64,000 nucleotides of DNA from Burkholderiales bacterium (GTDB taxonomy: Bacteria; Pseudomonadota; Gammaproteobacteria; Burkholderiales; Methylophilaceae). This document shows, piece by piece, positions 45,802 through 58,289 of the stretch. Position numbers and translations under genes: made by a program. Under the pieces are notes generated by a model, which was not told the DNA's origin, searched no databases, and was given only the letters and a program-made list of their open reading frames with translations. Location: the NCBI GenBank assembly GCA_030831475.1, contig JAURKY010000008.1, positions 174,829 through 238,828 on the forward strand, written 5' to 3'. The first letter of the stretch is position 1. Every line of letters starts with the position of its first letter.

Positions 45802-46650
45802 ATGGGACACACCCGCGGTGTTTTAGCACTATTGTTTGGCACTTTATCCTGGGGCTTGTTATGGTACCCCTACAGGATTCTTGACTCCTTAAATCTTTCC
45901 GGTGTTCATGCAAGCCTGCTTAGCTTTTTAGTGACTTTTCTAATTGCCCTGACTTTTTATAGACTAAAAAACTTTAATGTCTTTAAAACTAGCCACTTTT
46001 GGTTTTATGCACTTATAGGTGGGATCACTAATATATGCTACGTGCTAGCCGTCATAAATGGCGAGGTTGTTAGAGTCATGTTGCTTTTCTTTTTATCACC
46101 GGTCTGGACTTTGCCTTTGTCACTATGGCTGTTAAAGGAAAAGATTCAGGTAAAAAACATTTGGGCAGCACTATTGAGCCTCCTGGGTGGATTTATCGTT
46201 TTATGGCACCCTCAACTTTTCAATGAAAGTTTGGGCCTGAGTGATTTATATGCCCTTATTGCGGGATTAGCATTTGCGCTTACTAATGTCATGGCTCGAT
46301 ATTATTCGCATATGTCCTTCCATGACAAATCCTATGCAATATGGTTTGGGGTCATCATCTTCGCGGCAATCGTTTCCTTAATTTTTGACCTTAAGGCGCC
46401 GAGCGATATTTTTAATGGCTACCTTATTTTTATCGTCATGATTATAGGACTCACGTTATTTATAACCACACTAGTTGTTCAGTTTGGCTTGACTCAAGTT
46501 AATGCTGTAACAGCCAGCCCAATATTTCTTTTTGAAATTATTGTTGCGGGTATCTCAGCATATTTTCTTGCTAATGAGGTGGTGCATGTGAAGGATTTCT
46601 TTGGGGGACTGTTAATTGTTTTAGGTGTTTTGATCTCAACTCGAGAGTAA
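45802..46650 (+). CDS. EamA/DMT-superfamily transporter
   Basis: 282 aa inner-membrane protein with about ten TM helices in two EamA repeats (about 5-135 and 145-278). Substrate unknown; relatives export amino acids, metabolites or nucleotide sugars. The start is 3 bp after miaA and the 3' end overlaps the convergent TPR glycosyltransferase gene by 15 bp. Confidence 0.85.
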   Translation: MGHTRGVLALLFGTLSWGLLWYPYRILDSLNLSGVHASLLSFLVTFLIALTFYRLKNFNVFKTSHFWFYALIGGITNICYVLAVINGEVVRVMLLFFLSPVWTLPLSLWLLKEKIQVKNIWAALLSLLGGFIVLWHPQLFNESLGLSDLYALIAGLAFALTNVMARYYSHMSFHDKSYAIWFGVIIFAAIVSLIFDLKAPSDIFNGYLIFIVMIIGLTLFITTLVVQFGLTQVNAVTASPIFLFEIIVAGISAYFLANEVVHVKDFFGGLLIVLGVLISTRE

Positions 46651-48486
46651 TTTTTTATAGATAGTCTCTAGGTGTTTGGTAAATAATTTAGGCTTAAATA
46701 GATTTGATGTTTTTTTGGTTTGATGAATTTTATCTTTGATTAATTTTAATTGTTTTTTATCACCCATTAGGTTAATAATTTTTTCAACATAATCTTCCTC
46801 ATTAAAGGTTATTAAATCCTCGAGGCCAATGGATTTTAAGATACTTCCTGCCACTCTGCTTGGAAAGGTGCTTCCAGATTGCGTCACGATTGGGATCCCG
46901 GCCCATAATGCATCACTTGCTGATGTGTGAGCATTATAGGGAAATGTGTCCAAGAAAATATCAATGATTTGGTGTCTATTAATGTGCTCATCAAAACTTA
47001 CTTTAGGGGCAAACTTGATACGATTTGAATCTAATTGATGATTCGCAGCCACTCGCCATAGATTTTCTTTCGCCTCCTCATTGCAGTCCAATAGCCATAA
47101 ATAGGCATTATCAAATTGTTTAAGAATGGTTAACCATGACGTATACCTCTCAGGGGTGATCTTAATCGTTTGACCAAAGGATGCCAGTATGATGTGATCA
47201 TCCTGAAACCCATAATCTTTTTTTAAAACCTTGTTTAATTGACCACGATCAGCAATATTAGGTTGGTAACAATGAGGTAAATAAATAACTTCCTCTGAAT
47301 AGTATTTTTGATGATCTTTCGGAATAATAAATTGATCAGCCAGCAAATATTGGCAAAGTGAGTTTTGTTTTCTTGATCCGAGCGATCCAGCAAAACCGAG
47401 CCAATTAATGTGAATTTGGGCCGGCTTGAGTGCAGATATCATTGAGCGACTCGATTGAGTGAATCCTGAAAGATCAACAAGAATATCAACACCTTCATCA
47501 TTTATTTTCTTTGCGAGCTCAATATCACTTAAATTTTTTATTTCAATAAAAGGATAACCAAGCCCCTGATAACTTTTTTGCTCATTAGTATTTTCTCGTT
47601 GGCCTGAGTAAAAAAGCTTTATATCAAATGTTTTTAAATCATGGTATTTGAGTACATCGTAAATTAGGAAGTAGAGGGGGTGTAATCTAAAGTCACTTGA
47701 GAGATAACCAATCGTTATTTTTTGATTTGTTGTTTTTTTTCTTTCAAACGAAGGTAGTTGATAGTTTTCACACCAATTGGAACTCACTTGCAGCAAATCT
47801 TGTGGATTCATGTTAGTCATTGATAAAGCTGTAAAGGGTGATATCCGAGTACCCTTAATATCTAATGCATTTTTGATGGCTTCTTGAAGCTCATTTAAAC
47901 CATCCCAATCGCATAGTGATTGTTTAAGGTGTGCTAATTCAACTTTGGTATGAATCATTTTATCGGGGTTAGCATCGATGGCTAAAATATAATGCTCCTT
48001 GGCTTTATTAAACTGACCAAGCTGTCTATAGGTATTGCCAAGATTATTATGAGTATCTGCAGATTTTTGCAATGAGATAGCTTTTTGATAGAGAGGCAAT
48101 GCTTTTTTGTAATCATTCATTGCGTAGAATGCATTGCCACAGTTATATAAAAGATCAGCGTTTTGCGGTTGATAGGCAATAGCCTCTTCAAATGCAGCGA
48201 CCGCTAAATCAAATTTTTTGTAGCTTTGATACTCATTGCCAATTGCATGTAAACAAAAGACCAAGCCTTCCTTAATACCCTCGTTATCAGGAAAATAACG
48301 ATGCGATCGCCTAAAATAACCACAAGCTTCTTCTAACTTATTCTGCATTGCAAGCAGGTTGCCAATTTCAATTTGGATGAAGTAATTTTTGGGGTTGACC
48401 TGAAAAGCTTTTTTATACTCCTCAATGGCCTCATCTAAATTACCTGCCGATTCTAATTCTTTCGCTTTATTAATATGGTCAACCAA
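46636..48486 (-). CDS. TPR / O-GlcNAc-transferase-like (SPINDLY) glycosyltransferase
   Basis: 616 aa: N-terminal tetratricopeptide array (roughly five repeats, residues 1-185, for example AVAAFEEAIAYQPQNADLLYNCGNAFY), then a GT41-type catalytic region (about 250-610) with IGYLSSDFRLHPLYFLI, DILVDLSGFT, INWLGFAGSLGS and DIFLDTFPYNAHTSASDALWAGIPIVT. Bacterial members are thought to attach sugar to protein Ser/Thr, but the target is unknown. Start is TTG, overlapping the CFA-synthase stop by 8 bp. Last gene of the lipid-modification run, an unusual setting. Confidence 0.85.
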   Translation of the reverse strand: MVDHINKAKELESAGNLDEAIEEYKKAFQVNPKNYFIQIEIGNLLAMQNKLEEACGYFRRSHRYFPDNEGIKEGLVFCLHAIGNEYQSYKKFDLAVAAFEEAIAYQPQNADLLYNCGNAFYAMNDYKKALPLYQKAISLQKSADTHNNLGNTYRQLGQFNKAKEHYILAIDANPDKMIHTKVELAHLKQSLCDWDGLNELQEAIKNALDIKGTRISPFTALSMTNMNPQDLLQVSSNWCENYQLPSFERKKTTNQKITIGYLSSDFRLHPLYFLIYDVLKYHDLKTFDIKLFYSGQRENTNEQKSYQGLGYPFIEIKNLSDIELAKKINDEGVDILVDLSGFTQSSRSMISALKPAQIHINWLGFAGSLGSRKQNSLCQYLLADQFIIPKDHQKYYSEEVIYLPHCYQPNIADRGQLNKVLKKDYGFQDDHIILASFGQTIKITPERYTSWLTILKQFDNAYLWLLDCNEEAKENLWRVAANHQLDSNRIKFAPKVSFDEHINRHQIIDIFLDTFPYNAHTSASDALWAGIPIVTQSGSTFPSRVAGSILKSIGLEDLITFNEEDYVEKIINLMGDKKQLKLIKDKIHQTKKTSNLFKPKLFTKHLETIYKKLLSS

Positions 48487-49696
48487 TCTTATTTGCCCTG
48501 TAGTTTGGTTTTACAAAATGGATATGTAGATCATTGATGGCACGTTCTTTAAATCCTCCCTCACAATAGCAAAGGTAAAAAATCCACATTCTAATAAATT
48601 GCTCATCAAAACCTAATCGCTTAATTGGTATGATATTTTTCTTAAAATTTTCACGCCAATGTTTCAGGGTCTTTGCATAATCCATAGTTATATCTGTGAT
48701 ATTTACAACGTTCATATCTGTCTCATTATGAATCGTTTCTTGAATAATTTGCAGTGACGGTATGCAACTTCCTGGAAAAATATACTTTTGAATAAAGTCG
48801 ACTGAATTGAGGGCTTGTTCGTATCGTTGATCTTTGATGGTAATTGCTTGAATCAGTGCTTCACCATCATTCTTTAAAAGTCGCGCGATTGTCTTAAAGT
48901 AGCTTTTATAAAAATGATGCCCGACTGCCTCGATCATTTCAATGGAGACAAGTTTATTAAATTGACCTTTTAATTGACGGTAATCTTTCTTTAGCAGCGA
49001 AACTCTATGATCTAATTTTTCTTGCTTGATGAGATTCTTAACATAGTTGTATTGTTGGTTAGAGATTGTGGTTGTTGTCACTTTGCAGCCATAATTTTTG
49101 GCTGCATAAACAGCAAAGCCACCCCAGCCAGTCCCAATCTCCACCACATGATCTTTTTTTGTTAATTTAAGCCGATCGCAGATCGTTTTAAGCTTTAGTT
49201 TTGCTGCCTCATTGAGAGTCTTTGCTTGCTTAGAATAGACAGCCGATGAGTACATCATCAACGGGTCAAGAAAATACGCAAAAAATTCATTGGATAAATC
49301 ATAATGGTGGGCAATATTTTTCTTGCTTCCATATAAGGTATTTTTGTTTAACCAATGAATAAGCCTAAAGAAGGGCCTCAAGATAAAGTTGAAAATACCT
49401 TCCATGCCATCCATCACATTCGAATTTACAGACATCAATCTAATCACATCGGTTAGATTTTTAGATGTCCATGTTCCTTGAATATAAGATTCTGCCGAAC
49501 CAATGGAGCCTCCAAATAATAATTCTGAGTAAAAAGCTATATTTTTAATTTTTATCTCGGCTGTAATCTGATCTTTTTTACCAAAGATATATTTCTTGTT
49601 TGGTTCGATTAAAATAAGTTGACCATGACGGAGTTTGGTTAAATGTCTATGAATAATTTTTTTAGATAGCTGATGGATTGATGTATTTAATATCAT
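48479..49696 (-). CDS. cfa: cyclopropane-fatty-acyl-phospholipid synthase family methyltransferase (copy 1)
   Basis: Adds a carbon from SAM to cis double bonds of membrane phospholipid acyl chains. 405 aa, like E. coli Cfa (382). N-terminal lipid-binding region with FGGSIGSAESYIQG (61-74), substrate motif HYDLSN (131-136), SAM loop EIGTGWGG (186-193), VSIEMIEAVGHHF and a C-terminal GGF segment. Start overlaps the DUF1365 stop as ATGA. A second, divergent relative lies at the other end of the same operon. Confidence 0.92.
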   Translation of the reverse strand: MILNTSIHQLSKKIIHRHLTKLRHGQLILIEPNKKYIFGKKDQITAEIKIKNIAFYSELLFGGSIGSAESYIQGTWTSKNLTDVIRLMSVNSNVMDGMEGIFNFILRPFFRLIHWLNKNTLYGSKKNIAHHYDLSNEFFAYFLDPLMMYSSAVYSKQAKTLNEAAKLKLKTICDRLKLTKKDHVVEIGTGWGGFAVYAAKNYGCKVTTTTISNQQYNYVKNLIKQEKLDHRVSLLKKDYRQLKGQFNKLVSIEMIEAVGHHFYKSYFKTIARLLKNDGEALIQAITIKDQRYEQALNSVDFIQKYIFPGSCIPSLQIIQETIHNETDMNVVNITDITMDYAKTLKHWRENFKKNIIPIKRLGFDEQFIRMWIFYLCYCEGGFKERAINDLHIHFVKPNYRANKIG

Positions 49697-50424
49697 GGGT
49701 GCGGATAAAATGTTACACGCTTTATAAAGAGCATAAAGGCATTCCAGTAAATTAAAAAAATTGCTTTAAACGACATGGGAAACGTTAGAAAAAGAATTTT
49801 ATTCAACTCCCATGAATTCCAGGCTCTTTTTTTTAGCTTCAGGGTTGCGTTAAACATTAAATCATCCTTTTCAAAGTTATCCATGGATACATAAAGAAAA
49901 TCTTTTGGCTCAGTAAAAATCCAATTGTATCTAATGTCCATGGGCATGAAAGGGGAGACATGAAATTGTTTGTTGAATTCAATCCCTTTAGAGTGAATCT
50001 TTTTATTTCGGCAATCATGGACGTAGGCATGTCGCTCGTTCCATGGTGTGTTTGTGATATGAGAGACAATCGCGGTAAGTTTATTTTTACTGTTATAGCA
50101 ATAGTAAAAGCTAACGGGATTAAAACAAAAGCCAAACAAGCGAATCGTTGTTAAGAGAAATATTTTACCGCTTAATTTAATTGATAAATTTTTCTCAACA
50201 AGTTTCTTAATAGAATATTCAATTGACTCATTATCTGGTCCATAGTAATCTTTTCGATAAAATGAAGCTAAATTAGGCCGATTTAAACTCCAGAAAAAAA
50301 GTTTTGAAAAAGCATTATTTATTTCTGATAAATCAATAAATAGCATACTGACATCATATTTGAACTGATGTTTTTTAGGCTTTATTCGGTGGTGGCTTAA
50401 GGTACCTTTGTAAATCGAATGCAT
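49693..50424 (-). CDS. DUF1365 protein
   Basis: 243 aa DUF1365 member of unknown biochemical function, almost always found between a flavin amine-oxidase-like gene and a CFA-synthase-like gene, as here. Typical N-terminus MHSIYKGTLSHHRIKPKKHQF (H/R-rich) and the conserved FCFNPVSFYYCY and HVSPFM segments. A C-terminal hydrophobic stretch suggests membrane contact. Coupled to CFA copy 1. Confidence 0.88.
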   Translation of the reverse strand: MHSIYKGTLSHHRIKPKKHQFKYDVSMLFIDLSEINNAFSKLFFWSLNRPNLASFYRKDYYGPDNESIEYSIKKLVEKNLSIKLSGKIFLLTTIRLFGFCFNPVSFYYCYNSKNKLTAIVSHITNTPWNERHAYVHDCRNKKIHSKGIEFNKQFHVSPFMPMDIRYNWIFTEPKDFLYVSMDNFEKDDLMFNATLKLKKRAWNSWELNKILFLTFPMSFKAIFLIYWNAFMLFIKRVTFYPHP

Positions 50425-50425
50425 A

Positions 50426-51667
50426 TTAGCTTACTAAACTATTAAATAAATCTAGGGCCTCATAGGCGCTTTTAACACCATCCTCATGGAAGCCGTTATG
50501 CCAATAAGCGCCAACGAAAAATGAACGATTTTTTCCATTAATTAATTTTTTCTGAGCCTGTGCTTTTTGTGATTGAATTGAAAAGTAGGGATGACTGTAA
50601 TTAAATTTTTTTAAGATTTTAGTTTGATTAATGAGATGGCCCGAATTTAGACTTACTAGCAACGGTGTTTTTAATGGAAGGCTTTGTAAGATATTCATGT
50701 TGTATGTAAGGTAAATAGGTTCATCAACATCGTTATCAATATTATAGTTCCAGGCCGCCCATGCTCTTTTTGATTTCGGTAATACGTTTTCATCTGTATG
50801 CAGAGTAATTTCATTTTGGGTAAAGGGTATTGCGCCTAAAATATTTTTTTCTATTTGAGTTGGATTAGCCATCAGTTTGAGAGCTTCATCGCTGTGGCAT
50901 GCAAAAAAAACATAATCATAGGTTTCATTGCCGTGATTGCTCTTTACCTCCACCTTATCTTTTTTTCTATGAATAGCCTTAATTTGGCTATTTGTTCTAA
51001 TTTTATCTTTAAATTTTTCGGTCAGCTTTGCAACATAATTTTTACTACCCCCCTTGATGGTAAGCCACTGAGGTCGTTCATTGATAGATAACATTCCATG
51101 ATTCTCAAAGAATTGGATAAAAAAATGAGCTGGAAAATTCATAATGGCATTAATGTCTGATGACCATATCGCTGAACCCATCGGAAAAATATAGTTTTGT
51201 TGAAAATAGCTTGATAGACCTAATTGGTTCAGCAATTCATGCATGGTTAAGTTTTCTGTTTGATTAAGTATTTTTTTGGCATGCTTGTTAAATTTAAAAA
51301 TTTCATAAATCATCATAAGAAAACGAGGGTTGAGTAGATTTTTTCTTTGGGCAAACAAACCATTTAAATTAGTACCGTTGTATTCAAAATTATTTTTCTT
51401 TGAATGCACGCTAAAACTCATATGACTGTTAATGTAATCAACATTCAAATCATCTAGCAACCTTGTAAATAGTGGGTAGGTTTTTTTGTTAAATACAATA
51501 AAACCTGTATCAACACTCACGATCTTATTTTCAATGCTGACTTCGTGTGTGTGTGAGTGACCACCGATTCTGTCTTCTTTTTCAAATAAGGTTATTTCAT
51601 GCGTATCGCAAAGCAGGTACGCGGTCGTATTTCCCGCAATTCCGGATCCAATGATTGCTACTTTCAT
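50426..51667 (-). CDS. FAD-dependent amine-oxidase-like oxidoreductase
   Basis: 413 aa flavoprotein with N-terminal dinucleotide loop GSGIAG (7-12), LFEKEDRIGGHSHT (28-41), FIVFNKKTYP and a C-terminal FFVGAYWHNGFHEDG segment of the NAD(P)-binding/Amino_oxidase group. Relatives next to DUF1365 and CFA-like genes are implicated in desaturation or oxidation of methylated fatty acids in other proteobacteria; a lipid substrate is inference here. Six bp after the desaturase gene. Confidence 0.85.
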   Translation of the reverse strand: MKVAIIGSGIAGNTTAYLLCDTHEITLFEKEDRIGGHSHTHEVSIENKIVSVDTGFIVFNKKTYPLFTRLLDDLNVDYINSHMSFSVHSKKNNFEYNGTNLNGLFAQRKNLLNPRFLMMIYEIFKFNKHAKKILNQTENLTMHELLNQLGLSSYFQQNYIFPMGSAIWSSDINAIMNFPAHFFIQFFENHGMLSINERPQWLTIKGGSKNYVAKLTEKFKDKIRTNSQIKAIHRKKDKVEVKSNHGNETYDYVFFACHSDEALKLMANPTQIEKNILGAIPFTQNEITLHTDENVLPKSKRAWAAWNYNIDNDVDEPIYLTYNMNILQSLPLKTPLLVSLNSGHLINQTKILKKFNYSHPYFSIQSQKAQAQKKLINGKNRSFFVGAYWHNGFHEDGVKSAYEALDLFNSLVS

Positions 51668-51673
51668 AAATGA

Positions 51674-52600
51674 TTAGGCTTTATTTGATTCACGAACTGT
51701 AGGAGATACAGTCCTGAGATCCCAAATAAGGCCAATATACGACATGAGTTTGAGGATATAGTATGTGATATCAATTTCCCACCAGTAGAATCCTTGACGT
51801 GCGGAGCCAGGGTAATGATGATGATTGTTATGCCAACCTTCGCCAAAGGTAAGCAAAGCCAAGATAAAATTATTTTTACTTCCATCCTTGGTTTTGTAGC
51901 GTCTTTTACCCCAAAGGTGCGATGCAGAATTAATTAAGAAGGTTGAGTGATATAAAATGACGGTAGAGAGCACAAAACCCCAGCTAACAAGTTGCCAACC
52001 GCTGGTTGCAAGCTCTGGATAGAAGTTGCCTAATAGCTCACCCATGATAAACAATCCAACACAAAAAATGATTGGCACAATAAGGTCGAAACGATCTATG
52101 AGTTTTAATTCGGGAAATCTTGCAAGCTCTTTGACCCATTTAATTTCAGTAAGAAAATTTTCCTTCGTTAGGAACCAGCCTGTATGGCTCCAAAAAAAGG
52201 ATTTGGTCATAGGGGAGTGATGATCATGCTCGGTGTCTGAATGAACATGATGTTTTCTATGATGTGCAGCCCACCATAGAGGGCCTCTTTGTACAGCAGA
52301 TGCTCCAAGAACCGCAAAAATAAATTGCATTGGTCTTGAGGTTCTAAAAGATTTGTGGGAAAAATAGCGATGGTAAAAGCCGGTAATGGCAAACATTCGC
52401 AGCGCATAAAGAATAATAAAAACAATCAGCGCGGTATGACTGTAGCCGACAAAAAATAAAGAGATAATCGCGATGTGAAGGCCTATGTATGGAATCACTC
52501 TGAGCCAATCAATGTCTTGAGTATTTATTTTTTTGCTTTGGTACTCCCTTTCTTTTATTCGATTATCAAACCAGCTAAAAAAGAAATTGAGTAGCTTCAC
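51674..52600 (-). CDS. membrane fatty-acid desaturase (delta-9 type)
   Basis: Introduces a cis double bond in acyl chains at a di-iron centre in the membrane. 308 aa, four TM helices, and all three histidine boxes: HRYFSH (77-82), HRKHH (114-118) and HNNHH (257-261). This is the acyl-CoA/acyl-lipid Ole1/DesC type. Start codon is GTG (GTGA overlap with the lipocalin stop). Its unsaturated product would be the substrate of the two CFA-type enzymes in the operon. Confidence 0.93.
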   Translation of the reverse strand: MKLLNFFFSWFDNRIKEREYQSKKINTQDIDWLRVIPYIGLHIAIISLFFVGYSHTALIVFIILYALRMFAITGFYHRYFSHKSFRTSRPMQFIFAVLGASAVQRGPLWWAAHHRKHHVHSDTEHDHHSPMTKSFFWSHTGWFLTKENFLTEIKWVKELARFPELKLIDRFDLIVPIIFCVGLFIMGELLGNFYPELATSGWQLVSWGFVLSTVILYHSTFLINSASHLWGKRRYKTKDGSKNNFILALLTFGEGWHNNHHHYPGSARQGFYWWEIDITYYILKLMSYIGLIWDLRTVSPTVRESNKA

Positions 52601-53115
52601 TGTTGCGGCACCAGTCTTAAATTGTCTGTGTTGTAACCCATGGCCTTGATCATTTCAGTAAATTTCACAATATCCTCATGGGGTAATTCTTTATTTCTTG
52701 ACATAAGCCAAACATAATCTAGTGCATCTCTTGCAACTATGGTATGTGAGTAGTTTTTATCCAAATAGCTAATTTTGTACTGAGCTTTGATTGGCCATAC
52801 AAATTGCATGCCCCATTCAGCATTATTGGTGCCCTCGACAATAAATCCTTTAGGATTATATTGTTTTTTTGGACCATCGAAGGAGCCTTCATTGAAAGTG
52901 AAGGTGGTAGCAATGGTTCCATCCTTATTCTTCTTATAAGATTCAATGGCGTTATAGGCATTTTTTTCAATAAAGGCAGGGATGTGTGCAATAACGTACC
53001 AATCACCCATAAATGCATCAATATCAACATGACTTACTATCGGTACCTTGGTTTCATTCATTGAGCAACCCGTAAAAAAAAAAGTAAAAATTAAAATCTT
53101 AATAAAATCAATCAT
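52597..53115 (-). CDS. blc: outer-membrane lipocalin (Blc)
   Basis: 172 aa bacterial lipocalin: lipoprotein signal with lipobox FTGC (14-17), GDWY (37-40, the GxWY signature), VPQQ end. Binds fatty acids or lysophospholipids and is thought to serve membrane repair. It starts the downstream half of the operon: an 86-bp AT-rich gap separates it from the DUF1295 gene and probably contains a promoter. Tightly coupled to the desaturase. Confidence 0.92.
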   Translation of the reverse strand: MIDFIKILIFTFFFTGCSMNETKVPIVSHVDIDAFMGDWYVIAHIPAFIEKNAYNAIESYKKNKDGTIATTFTFNEGSFDGPKKQYNPKGFIVEGTNNAEWGMQFVWPIKAQYKISYLDKNYSHTIVARDALDYVWLMSRNKELPHEDIVKFTEMIKAMGYNTDNLRLVPQQ

Positions 53116-53201
53116 TTATTTAATAATCTAAATGTAAAATATATGTATAAAAACTAAGTTTTTTAAAAAAAATTTTCAACTTAAATTTATCCTAACACAA
53201 T

Positions 53202-53963
53202 TTATTTCTTTGGTGGCCATGGTATGAATTTGGAGGTTTTATTAATGTAATCTTTATAACCAACCCTTCTAGAAATAATGGTAGATTCCATCAAGTCTGC
53301 CCCTGAGAATTTAACTAAAAGGTAGGTCATGATGAGTGGCGATATGACGGTGTACCATAACCCTGAGGGTATAGAGACGATGTAAAATCCCCACCAAATT
53401 AAACATTCACCAAAATAATTCGGGTGACGACTATATTTCCAAAACCCATGATTCATAACAGCCCGTTTAGCATCTTTTTTTAAAAATTGCCTTAGCTGGT
53501 AATCACTGACAGCCTCAATTAAAAAACCAACCATAAACAATCCAAGACCAATTTTTGTGAAAACGTTATATTCAAATACCTTAAAGGTTGCAATGATAGG
53601 TAGGCTGATAACCAGGGCTAATGCACCTTGGAATAAAAATATGATGTAAAAGCTTTTATACCTAAATCCAGGTTCATTATTAAGTCGTATGGCTTGATAA
53701 CGACTGTCCTCACCTTTATTCCAATTTCTAATGGTTAAATACCCACTCAATCGTATTGACCAGATCAGAACAGCTAAGCTGAGTGCTTGCTGTGGATAAG
53801 ATACAGGTGCAAAGGTGCAAAAGAGAGTAGCGGTCGTGATAAGAAAGAAAAGGCTCCACATACTATCAACGTGGGTAACTCGATTCGAATACAGACTATA
53901 AATCCAACCTAAAAAAGCAAATATTAAGATGTTAATCGTTACGGGTATATACAAATCAATCAT
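53202..53963 (-). CDS. DUF1295 membrane protein (steroid 5-alpha-reductase-like)
   Basis: 253 aa with about six TM helices and the SRHPNYFGE motif (NADPH-binding C-terminal segment shared with steroid reductases and isoprenylcysteine methyltransferases). Probably reduces a lipid double bond with NADPH, which is inference. Start overlaps the DUF2878 stop (ATGA). Confidence 0.87.
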   Translation of the reverse strand: MIDLYIPVTINILIFAFLGWIYSLYSNRVTHVDSMWSLFFLITTATLFCTFAPVSYPQQALSLAVLIWSIRLSGYLTIRNWNKGEDSRYQAIRLNNEPGFRYKSFYIIFLFQGALALVISLPIIATFKVFEYNVFTKIGLGLFMVGFLIEAVSDYQLRQFLKKDAKRAVMNHGFWKYSRHPNYFGECLIWWGFYIVSIPSGLWYTVISPLIMTYLLVKFSGADLMESTIISRRVGYKDYINKTSKFIPWPPKK

Positions 53964-54460
53964 GTACGCTCCGAATACTTCATTAAAAGAGGGGTGATCA
54001 TAGCCCAGCTTATAGCTAAAATAACAAGAGTGAGGTCAGATGTGATCTCAACAGCCCCTAATTTTTCACCCGCAACGTAGGCTAAAGGCCCGCCAAGAGC
54101 ACCAAATAAAAAAGATAAAACATACCTTCTCTTTAGCCAACTTAGGCTGTGGTTTAGGGTCATCGCAAAGAGTAGCCACATAACAATAATCCATAAAGGT
54201 GTTAAAGGAAAAGGCCAGCCTGGATTAAAGTAAATAATGAAGTTAAAAAATTGCATCAAACCATCAAAAATAAAGCCAATGACAGCAGTAAAAGCGTAAA
54301 GTTTAAATTCAGGCCGATCAGCTTTGGTAAGTTTTATGTGGATGATTAAAATAATTAATGCTGAGAAGATACCGGGATAAACATAACCATGGGCGGCCCC
54401 TAATATCGCAGCAAACCATCCGATTTGAAACAAGCTAAAATTGATGATGTTCGCTTTCAT
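53960..54460 (-). CDS. DUF2878 membrane protein
   Basis: 166 aa from ATG at 54460, about five TM helices, with NFSLFQIGWFAAILGAAHG near the N-terminus and a GGPLAYVAGEKLGA segment, typical of DUF2878. Function unknown; family members sit beside CFA-like methyltransferase genes. Starts inside the CFA copy 2 stop (ATGA overlap), so I reject the longer frame. Confidence 0.82.
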   Translation of the reverse strand: MKANIINFSLFQIGWFAAILGAAHGYVYPGIFSALIILIIHIKLTKADRPEFKLYAFTAVIGFIFDGLMQFFNFIIYFNPGWPFPLTPLWIIVMWLLFAMTLNHSLSWLKRRYVLSFLFGALGGPLAYVAGEKLGAVEITSDLTLVILAISWAMITPLLMKYSERT

Positions 54461-55488
54461 TTGGTAAAGGTATAGTGACCTACCAGCCACTCATCTCCAT
54501 CATTAAAGCCCCAAAGCTCAGCGCATGCCATAAAAAAGATTCGCCAACGCTGAAGCCATAACTTGGCAGAATTCTTGCCATAGATTTTTGTAAGTACTTC
54601 TAAAGATTGTTGCTTGTTAGCATCTAGATTGTTAAGCCATGCATTCGCTGTTTTTTCATAATGACGACCAGGCCATACCCATTGATCCTTGAGCTTAATT
54701 GAATCTTGAAAATGATGAGGTAAGTCTAGGCTTGGCATCATACCGCCCGAGAAAAAATATTGACTCATCCAGTCATCCTCATCAATCACTTCAAATAGGT
54801 AAGGTTGCGATTTATGGACAAAGATATGCATAAAAAATAACCCTGTCGGCTTTAACCATGTGGCTATGAGATTAAATAACTTTCGATGGTTTCGCATATG
54901 CTCAATCATTTCAACCGACACAATTCGGTCGAATTGTTGATCTAATCTTAAATGATTCATATCACAAGTAATGATTGTGATATTGGTTAAGCCTCTATCA
55001 TTAGCTTGGTCTAGAATGTATTTCCTTTGAGAAGCAGAGTTGGACACAGCTGTAATATGTGAATTAGGATAATGTTGAGCCATCCATAGTGTGAGAGACC
55101 CCCAACCACATCCAAGCTCTAAGATGGTCAATCCATCTTGAATGTCTGCCCTTGAGCACGTTATTTCAAGTGCTTCTTTTTCAGCATGATTTAAATCAGT
55201 GGTATCGCTATCCCAAAAGCATGAGCTGTATTTCTTATGCAGTCCTAGACATAGATCATAAAAATCACTGGTAATTTCATAGTGTTGTTGATTAGCCAGT
55301 TCCGGCACCTCAGCAATCTTAGCTTGATCCATCATCTCAATAAATTTAATCTTATTTTGTTTGTTGGTTTCTTGATTTGGATCGATCAGCGATGTGAGTC
55401 TTTTCCTTAGAAGATGTCGGATGCCAAACCTTAAAAGAAAATCAGGTAAAAGGTTTTTTTCTGCTAACTGAATTAAAAAATTGATCAT
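54457..55488 (-). CDS. cyclopropane-synthase-like SAM methyltransferase (copy 2)
   Basis: 343 aa, shorter and more divergent than copy 1: no FGGSxGxAE N-terminal segment, but QQHYEI (67-72), SAM loop LELGCGWGS (123-131), VSVEMIEHMRNH and a FFSGGMMPSLD segment. This is the type found in lipid-methylation clusters, where relatives methylate unsaturated acyl chains. First gene of the run; upstream is a 93-bp divergent gap. The target is inferred from family and neighbours. Confidence 0.85.
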   Translation of the reverse strand: MINFLIQLAEKNLLPDFLLRFGIRHLLRKRLTSLIDPNQETNKQNKIKFIEMMDQAKIAEVPELANQQHYEITSDFYDLCLGLHKKYSSCFWDSDTTDLNHAEKEALEITCSRADIQDGLTILELGCGWGSLTLWMAQHYPNSHITAVSNSASQRKYILDQANDRGLTNITIITCDMNHLRLDQQFDRIVSVEMIEHMRNHRKLFNLIATWLKPTGLFFMHIFVHKSQPYLFEVIDEDDWMSQYFFSGGMMPSLDLPHHFQDSIKLKDQWVWPGRHYEKTANAWLNNLDANKQQSLEVLTKIYGKNSAKLWLQRWRIFFMACAELWGFNDGDEWLVGHYTFTK

Positions 55489-55581: not shown

Positions 55582-55923
55582 ATGCTGAAATACATCATCC
55601 TAATTTTATTCGTTCCAAATTGTATATTAGCTGAAACATGGCGGTGTGAGATATCTTTAAGCAATAATGGTCGTGGCAATATCAACGAGCAAAAAATTTA
55701 CACAAAGCATCATAATTATTACCTTAAATCATCACAGTTTGGAGATAAAAAATTACAAACCCTCGAGGATAATGATGAGGTAGTTATTATTAGTTCAGAA
55801 TCTACAAATGTTACTTTATCAGTCACTCTTGATAAAAGACATAAGACTTTTATTGAAAAAGAGATAGATAAAAGTGGGCTTGAAATAAATAAGGTGGAGG
55901 GCATTTGTAATGTCTCTCAATAA
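55582..55923 (+). CDS. small secreted protein of unknown function
   Basis: 113 aa; signal peptide MLKYIILILFVPNCILAE then a beta-rich, Ser/Thr/Asn/Lys-rich body with one Cys just after the signal (WRCEIS) and one near the C-terminus (EGICNVSQ), spaced for a disulfide. No Shine-Dalgarno. Size and the N-terminal-Cys/C-terminal EGxC pattern resemble the protein encoded at 61350-61727. I do not recognise a family. Confidence 0.6.
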   Translation: MLKYIILILFVPNCILAETWRCEISLSNNGRGNINEQKIYTKHHNYYLKSSQFGDKKLQTLEDNDEVVIISSESTNVTLSVTLDKRHKTFIEKEIDKSGLEINKVEGICNVSQ

Positions 55924-58213: not shown

Positions 58214-58289
58214 TGGCGTCCCCAAGGGGATTCGAACCCCTGTTGCCGCCGTGAAAGGGCAGTGTCCTAGGCCTCTAGACGATGGGGAC
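58214..58289 (-). tRNA. tRNA-Glu (anticodon TTC)
   Basis: 76-nt tRNA on the minus strand, nearly identical to E. coli tRNA-Glu: acceptor GTCCCCA with TGGGGAC, anticodon stem-loop CTGCCCTTTCACGGCGG with TTC, T loop GTTCGAATC, encoded GCCA. Divergent from glnE. Its 3' end is repeated 596 bp downstream. Confidence 0.98.

Follow-up and report, generated by a model that had tools for sequence, protein, structure and literature searches.

The window analysed here is a stretch of 64,000 nucleotides from a Burkholderiales bacterium of the Methylophilaceae (assembly GCA_030831475.1, contig JAURKY010000008.1, positions 174,829 to 238,828 of the forward strand). Its minus strand carries, at 46636-55488, nine open reading frames (ORFs), eight of which form an operon predicted to make furan fatty acids. 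An original prediction, made from the sequence without database searches, had read these genes as an operon for acyl-chain modification and named furan fatty acids as one option, a reading that the matches to Ufa and FufM proteins described below support. The ORF map and Pfam likewise confirmed its nine ORFs, their coordinates, order and family names, and an 86-bp gap. Its statement that almost all junctions were ATGA/GTGA-type overlaps was overstated: in transcription order the spacings are -34, -4, +86, -4, +6, +1, -4 and -8 bp, so that 3 of the 8 junctions are 4-nt overlaps, with a fourth if the DUF2878 gene begins at Met11, a start used in several relatives. In transcription order, the features are:

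54457..55488, minus strand: FufM-type S-adenosylmethionine (SAM) methyltransferase ("CFA copy 2" of the original prediction), 343 amino acids (aa), CMAS E 3e-39 (Pfam)
53960..54490, minus strand: DUF2878 membrane protein, 176 aa, PF11086 E 2e-42, probable true start Met11 at 54460
53202..53963, minus strand: DUF1295 membrane protein, 253 aa, PF06966 E 3e-56
53116..53201, minus strand: gap of 86 bp between the DUF1295 and lipocalin genes, where most relatives carry a DUF6134 gene (about 205-235 aa)
52597..53115, minus strand: Blc-like lipocalin, 172 aa, PF08212 E 5e-34, NF007786 under cut-off
51674..52600, minus strand: acyl-CoA/acyl-lipid desaturase, SCD1-like, 308 aa, PF00487, three histidine boxes
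50426..51667, minus strand: predicted UfaD, an FAD-dependent enzyme that desaturates the methyl-branched chain, 413 aa, PF01593 (amine-oxidase-type flavoprotein)
49693..50424, minus strand: predicted UfaO (DUF1365), closing the furan ring in an oxygen-dependent step, 243 aa, PF07103 E 8e-72
48479..49696, minus strand: UfaM SAM methyltransferase ("CFA copy 1"), predicted to carry out the first methylation, at the cis double bond, 405 aa, CMAS E 4e-80
46636..48486, minus strand: TPR and Glyco_transf_41 glycosyltransferase (Pfam), a neighbour probably outside the pathway

The furan fatty acid pathway and all four of its enzymes are already known, with demonstrations in Rhodobacter and Rhodopseudomonas (Lemke 2020, PMC7380195; this and the other papers cited are drawn on in part). 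According to that work, UfaM converts cis-vaccenate chains to 11Me-12t-18:1, the flavoprotein UfaD yields 11Me-10t,12t-18:2, furan formation requires UfaO and takes the furan oxygen from O2, and FufM (RPA0924) converts the monomethyl 9M5 to the dimethyl 9D5, being sufficient alone in vitro; dimethyl synthesis was judged rarer than monomethyl synthesis (PMC7380195). UfaO has been tied to the DUF1365 family through AT1G30130 in a plant paper (PMC10940516). R. palustris ufaD, ufaO and ufaM are RPA2571, RPA2570 and RPA2569 (PMC7380195), and this order recurs, contiguously, both in the window and in 4/4 Rhodopseudomonas reference genomes (sp. AAP120, pentothenatexigens JA575, pseudopalustris DSM 123 and infernalis HC1; loci L174-L177). 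Because family and gene order match, the flavoprotein, DUF1365 protein and "CFA copy 1" would be UfaD, UfaO and UfaM; the window UfaD carries the flavin adenine dinucleotide (FAD) motif GSGIAG. The original prediction had given DUF1365, the family of the ring-forming UfaO, no step, and had missed that the flavoprotein matches UfaD and copy 2 the second methyltransferase, FufM. In 4/4 references a FufM-type gene sits elsewhere in the genome; a DUF1295 gene comes before it, with a spacing of -4 bp in two genomes and +8 bp in the other two. A search of these genomes for CMAS proteins gave a third strong match (>200 bits) in 3/4, and in pseudopalustris only the UfaM and FufM types above 50 bits; the CGA009 genes named by Lemke 2020 are UfaM, RPA3082 and FufM (PMC7380195).

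"CFA copy 2" is predicted from its sequence to be of the FufM type, methylating monomethyl-furan acyl chains to dimethyl ones. Its identity to the four Rhodopseudomonas FufM-type proteins is 46-49% over about 338 residues, compared with 35% to the coclaurine N-methyltransferase 6gkv and 31% to E. coli Cfa, the latter over 223 residues. His240, His266 and Phe268 (Cfa numbering) are present in 69/69 FufM proteins of the collected loci. In a 58-row tree, its rows selected to cover the genera, the FufM rows together with 6gkv split from Cfa and UfaM at 100/100, and 21 FufM rows, including those of the window and Rhodopseudomonas and leaving out Acinetobacter and 6gkv, group at 98/85. One could suppose instead that the operon makes monomethyl furans only and that this protein methylates something else, an amine for instance, like its relatives in plants: its best PDB matches are coclaurine-type N-methyltransferases (E about 1e-67), all 22 FufM rows part from 6gkv at a weak 94/56, and UfaO is absent from one of 25 sampled FufM genomes. 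Beyond the identity to, and grouping with, the Rhodopseudomonas proteins, the genomic company of the gene makes this very unlikely. Across an evenly drawn phylum sample, FufM (E <1e-40) occurred in 25/298 genomes, and UfaO (DUF1365) in 24/25 of these versus 105/273 of the others (one-sided Fisher p 7.8e-9, a test that treats genomes of the same genus as independent, which they are not); this table omits the window's own genome (298 of 299) and scores the weak DUF1365 matches of G312 and G413 as present. The two genes lie <=6 kb apart in 14/24 of the phylum-sample genomes, and FufM stands in the same gene row in 53/70 family loci.

Neither methyltransferase resembles a cyclopropane synthase, contrary to the original reading of both as CFA-type enzymes that add carbon as a cyclopropane or methyl branch. 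When the window UfaM was aligned with E. coli Cfa, Cys139 was found replaced by Ser, His240 by Ala and His266 by Gln, so that the Cfa signature residues, which we take to belong to the active site (E. coli numbering), are not kept. Among UfaM-type rows spanning genera, Gln266 was present in 28/28, Ala240 in 27/28 and Ser or Ala139 in 26/28, whereas Cfa-type rows had Cys139 in 8/8, His240 in 8/8 and His266 in 7/8. All 79 UfaM proteins from the collected loci gave Gln266 in 78 and Ala240 in 78 (79 UfaM and 69 FufM proteins >330 aa were counted, with eight short pieces excluded). A broken Azospirillum row (L039), kept in the residue counts and left out of the tree, is the odd one at position 240. 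In the tree, a branch with support 100/99 sets off 27 UfaM rows, including the window and Rhodopseudomonas UfaM; both window CMAS proteins lie outside the Cfa rows, and the eight Cfa rows do not form one group. Moreover, at least four congeners (L242-L245) encode a separate Cfa that is 50-52% identical to E. coli Cfa, although in L244 Gln replaces His266. By family, gene order, residues and tree position, "CFA copy 1" is thus identified as UfaM, and cyclopropane synthesis was rejected on the active-site residues, the tree and the congeners' separate Cfa. The broader idea, in which cyclopropane or simple methyl-branched chains are the products of both CMAS proteins and DUF1295 is a reductase, is highly improbable. 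The CMAS profile matches both proteins, UfaM shares 35% identity with E. coli Cfa, and a Halomonas UfaM expressed in E. coli gave 11-methyl-12-18:1 in a strain in which cyclic chains were also detected (PMC12089945); against these stand the replaced Cfa signature in 78/79 UfaM rows, the congeners' own Cfa, and the constant company of UfaD and UfaO, UfaD-UfaO-UfaM being together in 29/29 genus loci and 40/41 other family loci.

Taken together, homology, synteny and active-site residues make it very probable that the operon produces furan fatty acids, mono- and dimethyl, in membrane phospholipids. The desaturase, or else the FabA route, would supply the cis double bond, as the original prediction plausibly proposed for the former: the desaturase is SCD1-like (4ymk, E 1e-30) with the boxes HRYFSH, HHRKHH and HNNHHH. 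FabA is also encoded in the window's own genome, and therefore the desaturase would not be the sole source of double bonds. UfaM would then methylate the cis double bond and shift it, UfaD would introduce a conjugated double bond, UfaO would use O2 as the oxygen source for closing the furan ring, and FufM would attach the second ring methyl. Under the published UfaM rule, by which a cis double bond at carbon n places the methyl at n and the oxygen bridge from n-1 to n+2, 16:1(9) would give 7M5 and 7D5, and 18:1(11) would give 9M5 and 9D5. Such chains would be expected to act as scavengers of singlet oxygen and other oxidants. The lipocalin has, by eye, a lipoprotein-type N-terminus (FFTGC). 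DUF1365 occurs as one full copy per matching genome of the family. Neither the single UfaO sequence nor a 23-row profile found a sequence relative in the PDB, a match at E 0.3 being taken as chance, and alignment-free AlphaFold models of UfaO and DUF1295 were poor (mean predicted local distance difference test scores of 34.5 and 48.9).

Several points weigh against this assignment, in addition to the likeness of FufM to N-methyltransferases, its weak separation from 6gkv and the identity of UfaM to Cfa given above. The furan pathway of this organism is a prediction from its genes. The four Rhodopseudomonas genomes stand in for the proteins of R. palustris CGA009 and R. sphaeroides, and identity to their proteins is modest (37-38% for UfaD, 29-32% for UfaO and 37-38% for UfaM). 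The tree carries warnings for long branches (6gkv, the Legionella UfaM and one Cfa-like row of Rhodopseudomonas) and for nine rows of odd composition, the window UfaM included. Neither a ChrR cupin nor a MerR of LitR length was found in the window's own assembly, which is 59% complete and has one MerR in a 141-aa frame. Finally, that the pathway is a decayed remnant no longer making furan chains, as the missing DUF6134 gene, the absence of local regulators and the single draft assembly might suggest, is scarcely conceivable, since all eight ORFs are open with lengths matching relatives, the checked residues of UfaM, FufM, UfaD and desaturase are intact, and the genus retains FufM (>=58% identity) in 28/31 genomes, two of them frame-broken, and UfaO in 29/31.

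The operon is common across the family and is no oddity of a single small genome, in which the original prediction had found it striking. Our genus, family and phylum samples are groups of kinship, the phylum being Pseudomonadota as implied by the Methylophilaceae assignment. DUF1365 was found in 127/187 family genomes and 29/31 genus genomes; we read the loci of all 29 genus genomes with DUF1365 (window included) and of 41 of the 98 other-genus genomes with it, scoring frame-broken pieces in L185, L186, L187 and L198 as present. The neighbourhood check proposed with the original prediction bore out eight of its nine genes, which keep the same order in 18/29 genus loci and 35/41 other-genus family loci; the ninth, the glycosyltransferase, is not conserved. 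Among the other-genus loci, the only one without UfaD-UfaO-UfaM together is ended by a contig end, and two (L194, L195) have a different set, in which UfaD-UfaO-UfaM is accompanied by CHI, MFS, DUF3833 and SDR kin.

Eleven genus loci lack the full row: three are cut by contig ends (L127, L128, L135) and eight have the lipocalin-to-UfaM half alone; the main loci of the split lineage are L122, L124, L126, L129, L133, L134, L135 and L189. Seven of those eight genomes (G001, G003, G005, G008, G013, G014, G029) carry FufM-DUF2878-DUF1295-DUF6134 at a second site, as does G015, whose main locus is cut (second sites L232-L239). Where one contig holds both, the second site lies about 68-92 kb from the main locus. 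The idea that the sub-lineage lacking FufM at its main locus had lost the dimethyl step was accordingly rejected, the module having been relocated rather than lost. FufM was not found in G024, a genome 66% complete. Because the dimethyl half stands alone at the second site, the operon consists of two separable halves, one ring-forming and one dimethyl, and the boundary between them is the 86-bp gap of the window. Among loci where DUF1295 and lipocalin are both present, DUF6134 occupies this gap in 11/18 of the genus and 30/38 of the others, and it is missing from the window. Five of the eight congeners have a panB-like gene beside the second-site module (the labels PanB, EamA, MiaA, FTCL and GlnE are ORFs read by eye, with no profile scan).

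Among named systems, R. palustris ufaD-ufaO-ufaM with fufM has the same four enzyme families and the same UfaD-UfaO-UfaM order, although its two sets lie apart in the genome, whereas the window joins them in one operon with DUF2878, a lipocalin and an SCD1-like desaturase. In the four other Rhodopseudomonas, DUF1295 overlaps or abuts the FufM-type gene, and in the window it belongs to the FufM half of the operon. The R. sphaeroides genes RSP1091-1087 and RSP2144 (ufaM), of the RpoE-ChrR regulon, share the UfaD, UfaO and UfaM functions with the window; however, ufaM lies elsewhere, a monomethyl chain is what is described, and more furan is made without ChrR (PMC7380195), while no regulator adjoins the window operon. 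The Acinetobacter sp. WY4 plasmid NZ_CP053948.1 (L033) has lipocalin, desaturase, UfaD, UfaO, UfaM, DUF1295 and FufM in one run, but in another order, without DUF2878, and near a photolyase and a two-component pair. This Acinetobacter is krill-derived, and at least six further Acinetobacter plasmids have FufM matches. Gammaproteobacterial ufa clusters of the MerR/photolyase type (Salinivibrio, Aeromonas plasmids) have UfaD-UfaO-UfaM followed by DUF2878, but differ in their SDR, NTF2-like and DUF3833 partners, and FufM or DUF1295 was not found at the locus. Plasmids of Legionella lytica and Klebsiella pneumoniae (L034, L035) also carry UfaD-UfaO-UfaM and an annotated DUF2878, with no FufM at the locus.

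We propose that DUF1295 gains a place in furan chemistry through its frequent pairing with FufM, seen within 1.5 kb in 16/25 phylum-sample loci (with none within that distance in the other 9), in 4/4 Rhodopseudomonas genomes and in the relocated module of eight congeners. A Legionella plasmid locus with DUF1295 and no FufM counts against strict pairing. Its superfamily unites 5-alpha-steroid reductases and isoprenylcysteine methyltransferase (ICMT), and profile matches fell on both kinds (reductases 7c83 at 1e-4 and 7bw1 at 1.5e-4, but also ICMT 4a2n at 1.6e-4). Singlet oxygen opens furans to a cis-enedione, and 1,4-diketones close to furans (Paal-Knorr). One speculative possibility, which we hold to be unlikely, is that DUF1295 reduces the cis-enedione from a dimethyl furan opened by singlet oxygen, the resulting 1,4-diketone reclosing to the furan. 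Such a renewable antioxidant cycle would explain the pairing although FufM alone suffices for methylation; if it operates, each furan chain would be reusable many times instead of once. Because 9D5 formation in vitro needs no protein besides FufM, the probable substrate of DUF1295 is the finished furan chain or what arises from its oxidation. Deletions of RPA0923, numbered next to fufM, appear in the strain table of PMC7380195; judging from the gene neighbours in other Rhodopseudomonas, RPA0923 may be the DUF1295 gene.

As far as we searched, in literature that had most subscription papers and bioRxiv outside it, a single mono- and dimethyl furan operon, its spread through a family, its modular break and the FufM-DUF1295 pairing are unreported. 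FufM was named in four papers, two of them relevant by title; the DUF1295 literature searched (14 papers), which includes a paper on singlet oxygen (PMC4067076), had no title on furan fatty acids, and no paper on Methylophilaceae or OM43 with a furan fatty acid was found among the matches listed. Fish and other aquatic animals are reported to contain furan fatty acids, dimethyl ones included, and which organisms make them is not settled; a December 2024 paper on copepods describes it as unknown whether copepod furan lipids are eaten or self-made (PMC11766502). The window organism would be a candidate source of furan fats in natural waters, and the DUF1295 membrane family, one member of which is induced by singlet oxygen in an alga, would receive a concrete place in furan chemistry.

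As the original prediction held, there is no local regulator: none was found among the ten window ORFs scanned with Pfam (further neighbours were read by eye only), nor in the genus loci with the query set used. The suggested sigma-E/ChrR link, a kind of control known from R. sphaeroides that is not universal, holds for relatives elsewhere, RpoE-ChrR being close to UfaD/UfaO in Ensifer, Azospirillum and Qingshengfaniella loci. In the window's incomplete assembly no ChrR-type cupin was found, though it has two open frames of the sigma-70 type (225-230 aa). Elsewhere in the family, in other genera, an ECF-like sigma match occurs on 9/41 loci, 0.9-3.5 kb upstream where the spacing was recorded (two were scanned), and a MerR match lies upstream of FufM in 7/41 (L191, L210, L211, L212, L213, L229, L230), at 21-69 bp in the five loci with recorded spacing. 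The three scanned MerR proteins combine a helix-turn-helix with B12-binding domains, of which L191 has two, one under cut-off, and the scanned proteins contain Wx9EH and ExHxxG, presumably the LitR/CarH motifs. A LitR/CarH-type MerR may thus serve as a light switch in these genera. By eye, no shared promoter motif was seen before FufM or lipocalin when sets of 8, 8 and 14 upstream stretches were aligned, and promoter-like sites were rarer than in shuffles (28 vs a mean of 42.5).

Published work links these families to light and singlet oxygen. Light raises ufaM of Pseudomonas mendocina 25-33 fold, an effect ascribed to class II LitR (PMC9758184), and in Chlamydomonas singlet-oxygen induction of CFA1, CFA2, DUF1365, DUF2177 and DUF1295 requires SAK1, CFA2 being also listed as a coclaurine N-methyltransferase (PMC4067076). 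Furan chains protect against singlet oxygen (introduction of Lemke 2020, PMC7380195), and a review gives tetra-alkyl furan acids as the best antioxidants in vitro, F2 being about half as effective (PMC6213525); this higher antioxidant power would give a reason for the second methylation. Two gammaproteobacterial furan clusters (L037, L041) include a photolyase and a DUF523-DUF1722 gene, a make-up akin to that of the tRNA 4-thiouridine desulfidase RudS (PMC11417400), which suggests a wider light-damage gene set.

Other features concern the genome and the edges of the operon. The organism's own assembly is a draft of 707,495 bases in 8 contigs, with a hexulose-6-phosphate synthase above cut-off, consistent with a methylotroph; a rhodopsin search of it gave no match, and neither did its controls. 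The glycosyltransferase lies <200 bp from UfaM in 9/27 genus loci and 0/26 other-genus loci holding both genes, and was rejected as a pathway member, and as the ninth operon gene of the original prediction, because it is not adjacent in 18/27 and 26/26, respectively. An mnmC-like gene is on 18 of the 27 genus and 21 of the 26 other loci. On the other side, a divergent 113-aa ORF at window 55582-55923, with no match in Pfam or NCBIfam, adjoins FufM. In five congeners (L136, L137, L139, L141, L183) tRNA-Glu is directly upstream of FufM; in the window it lies at 58214-58289, 2.7 kb from FufM, and perhaps marks a rearrangement point.

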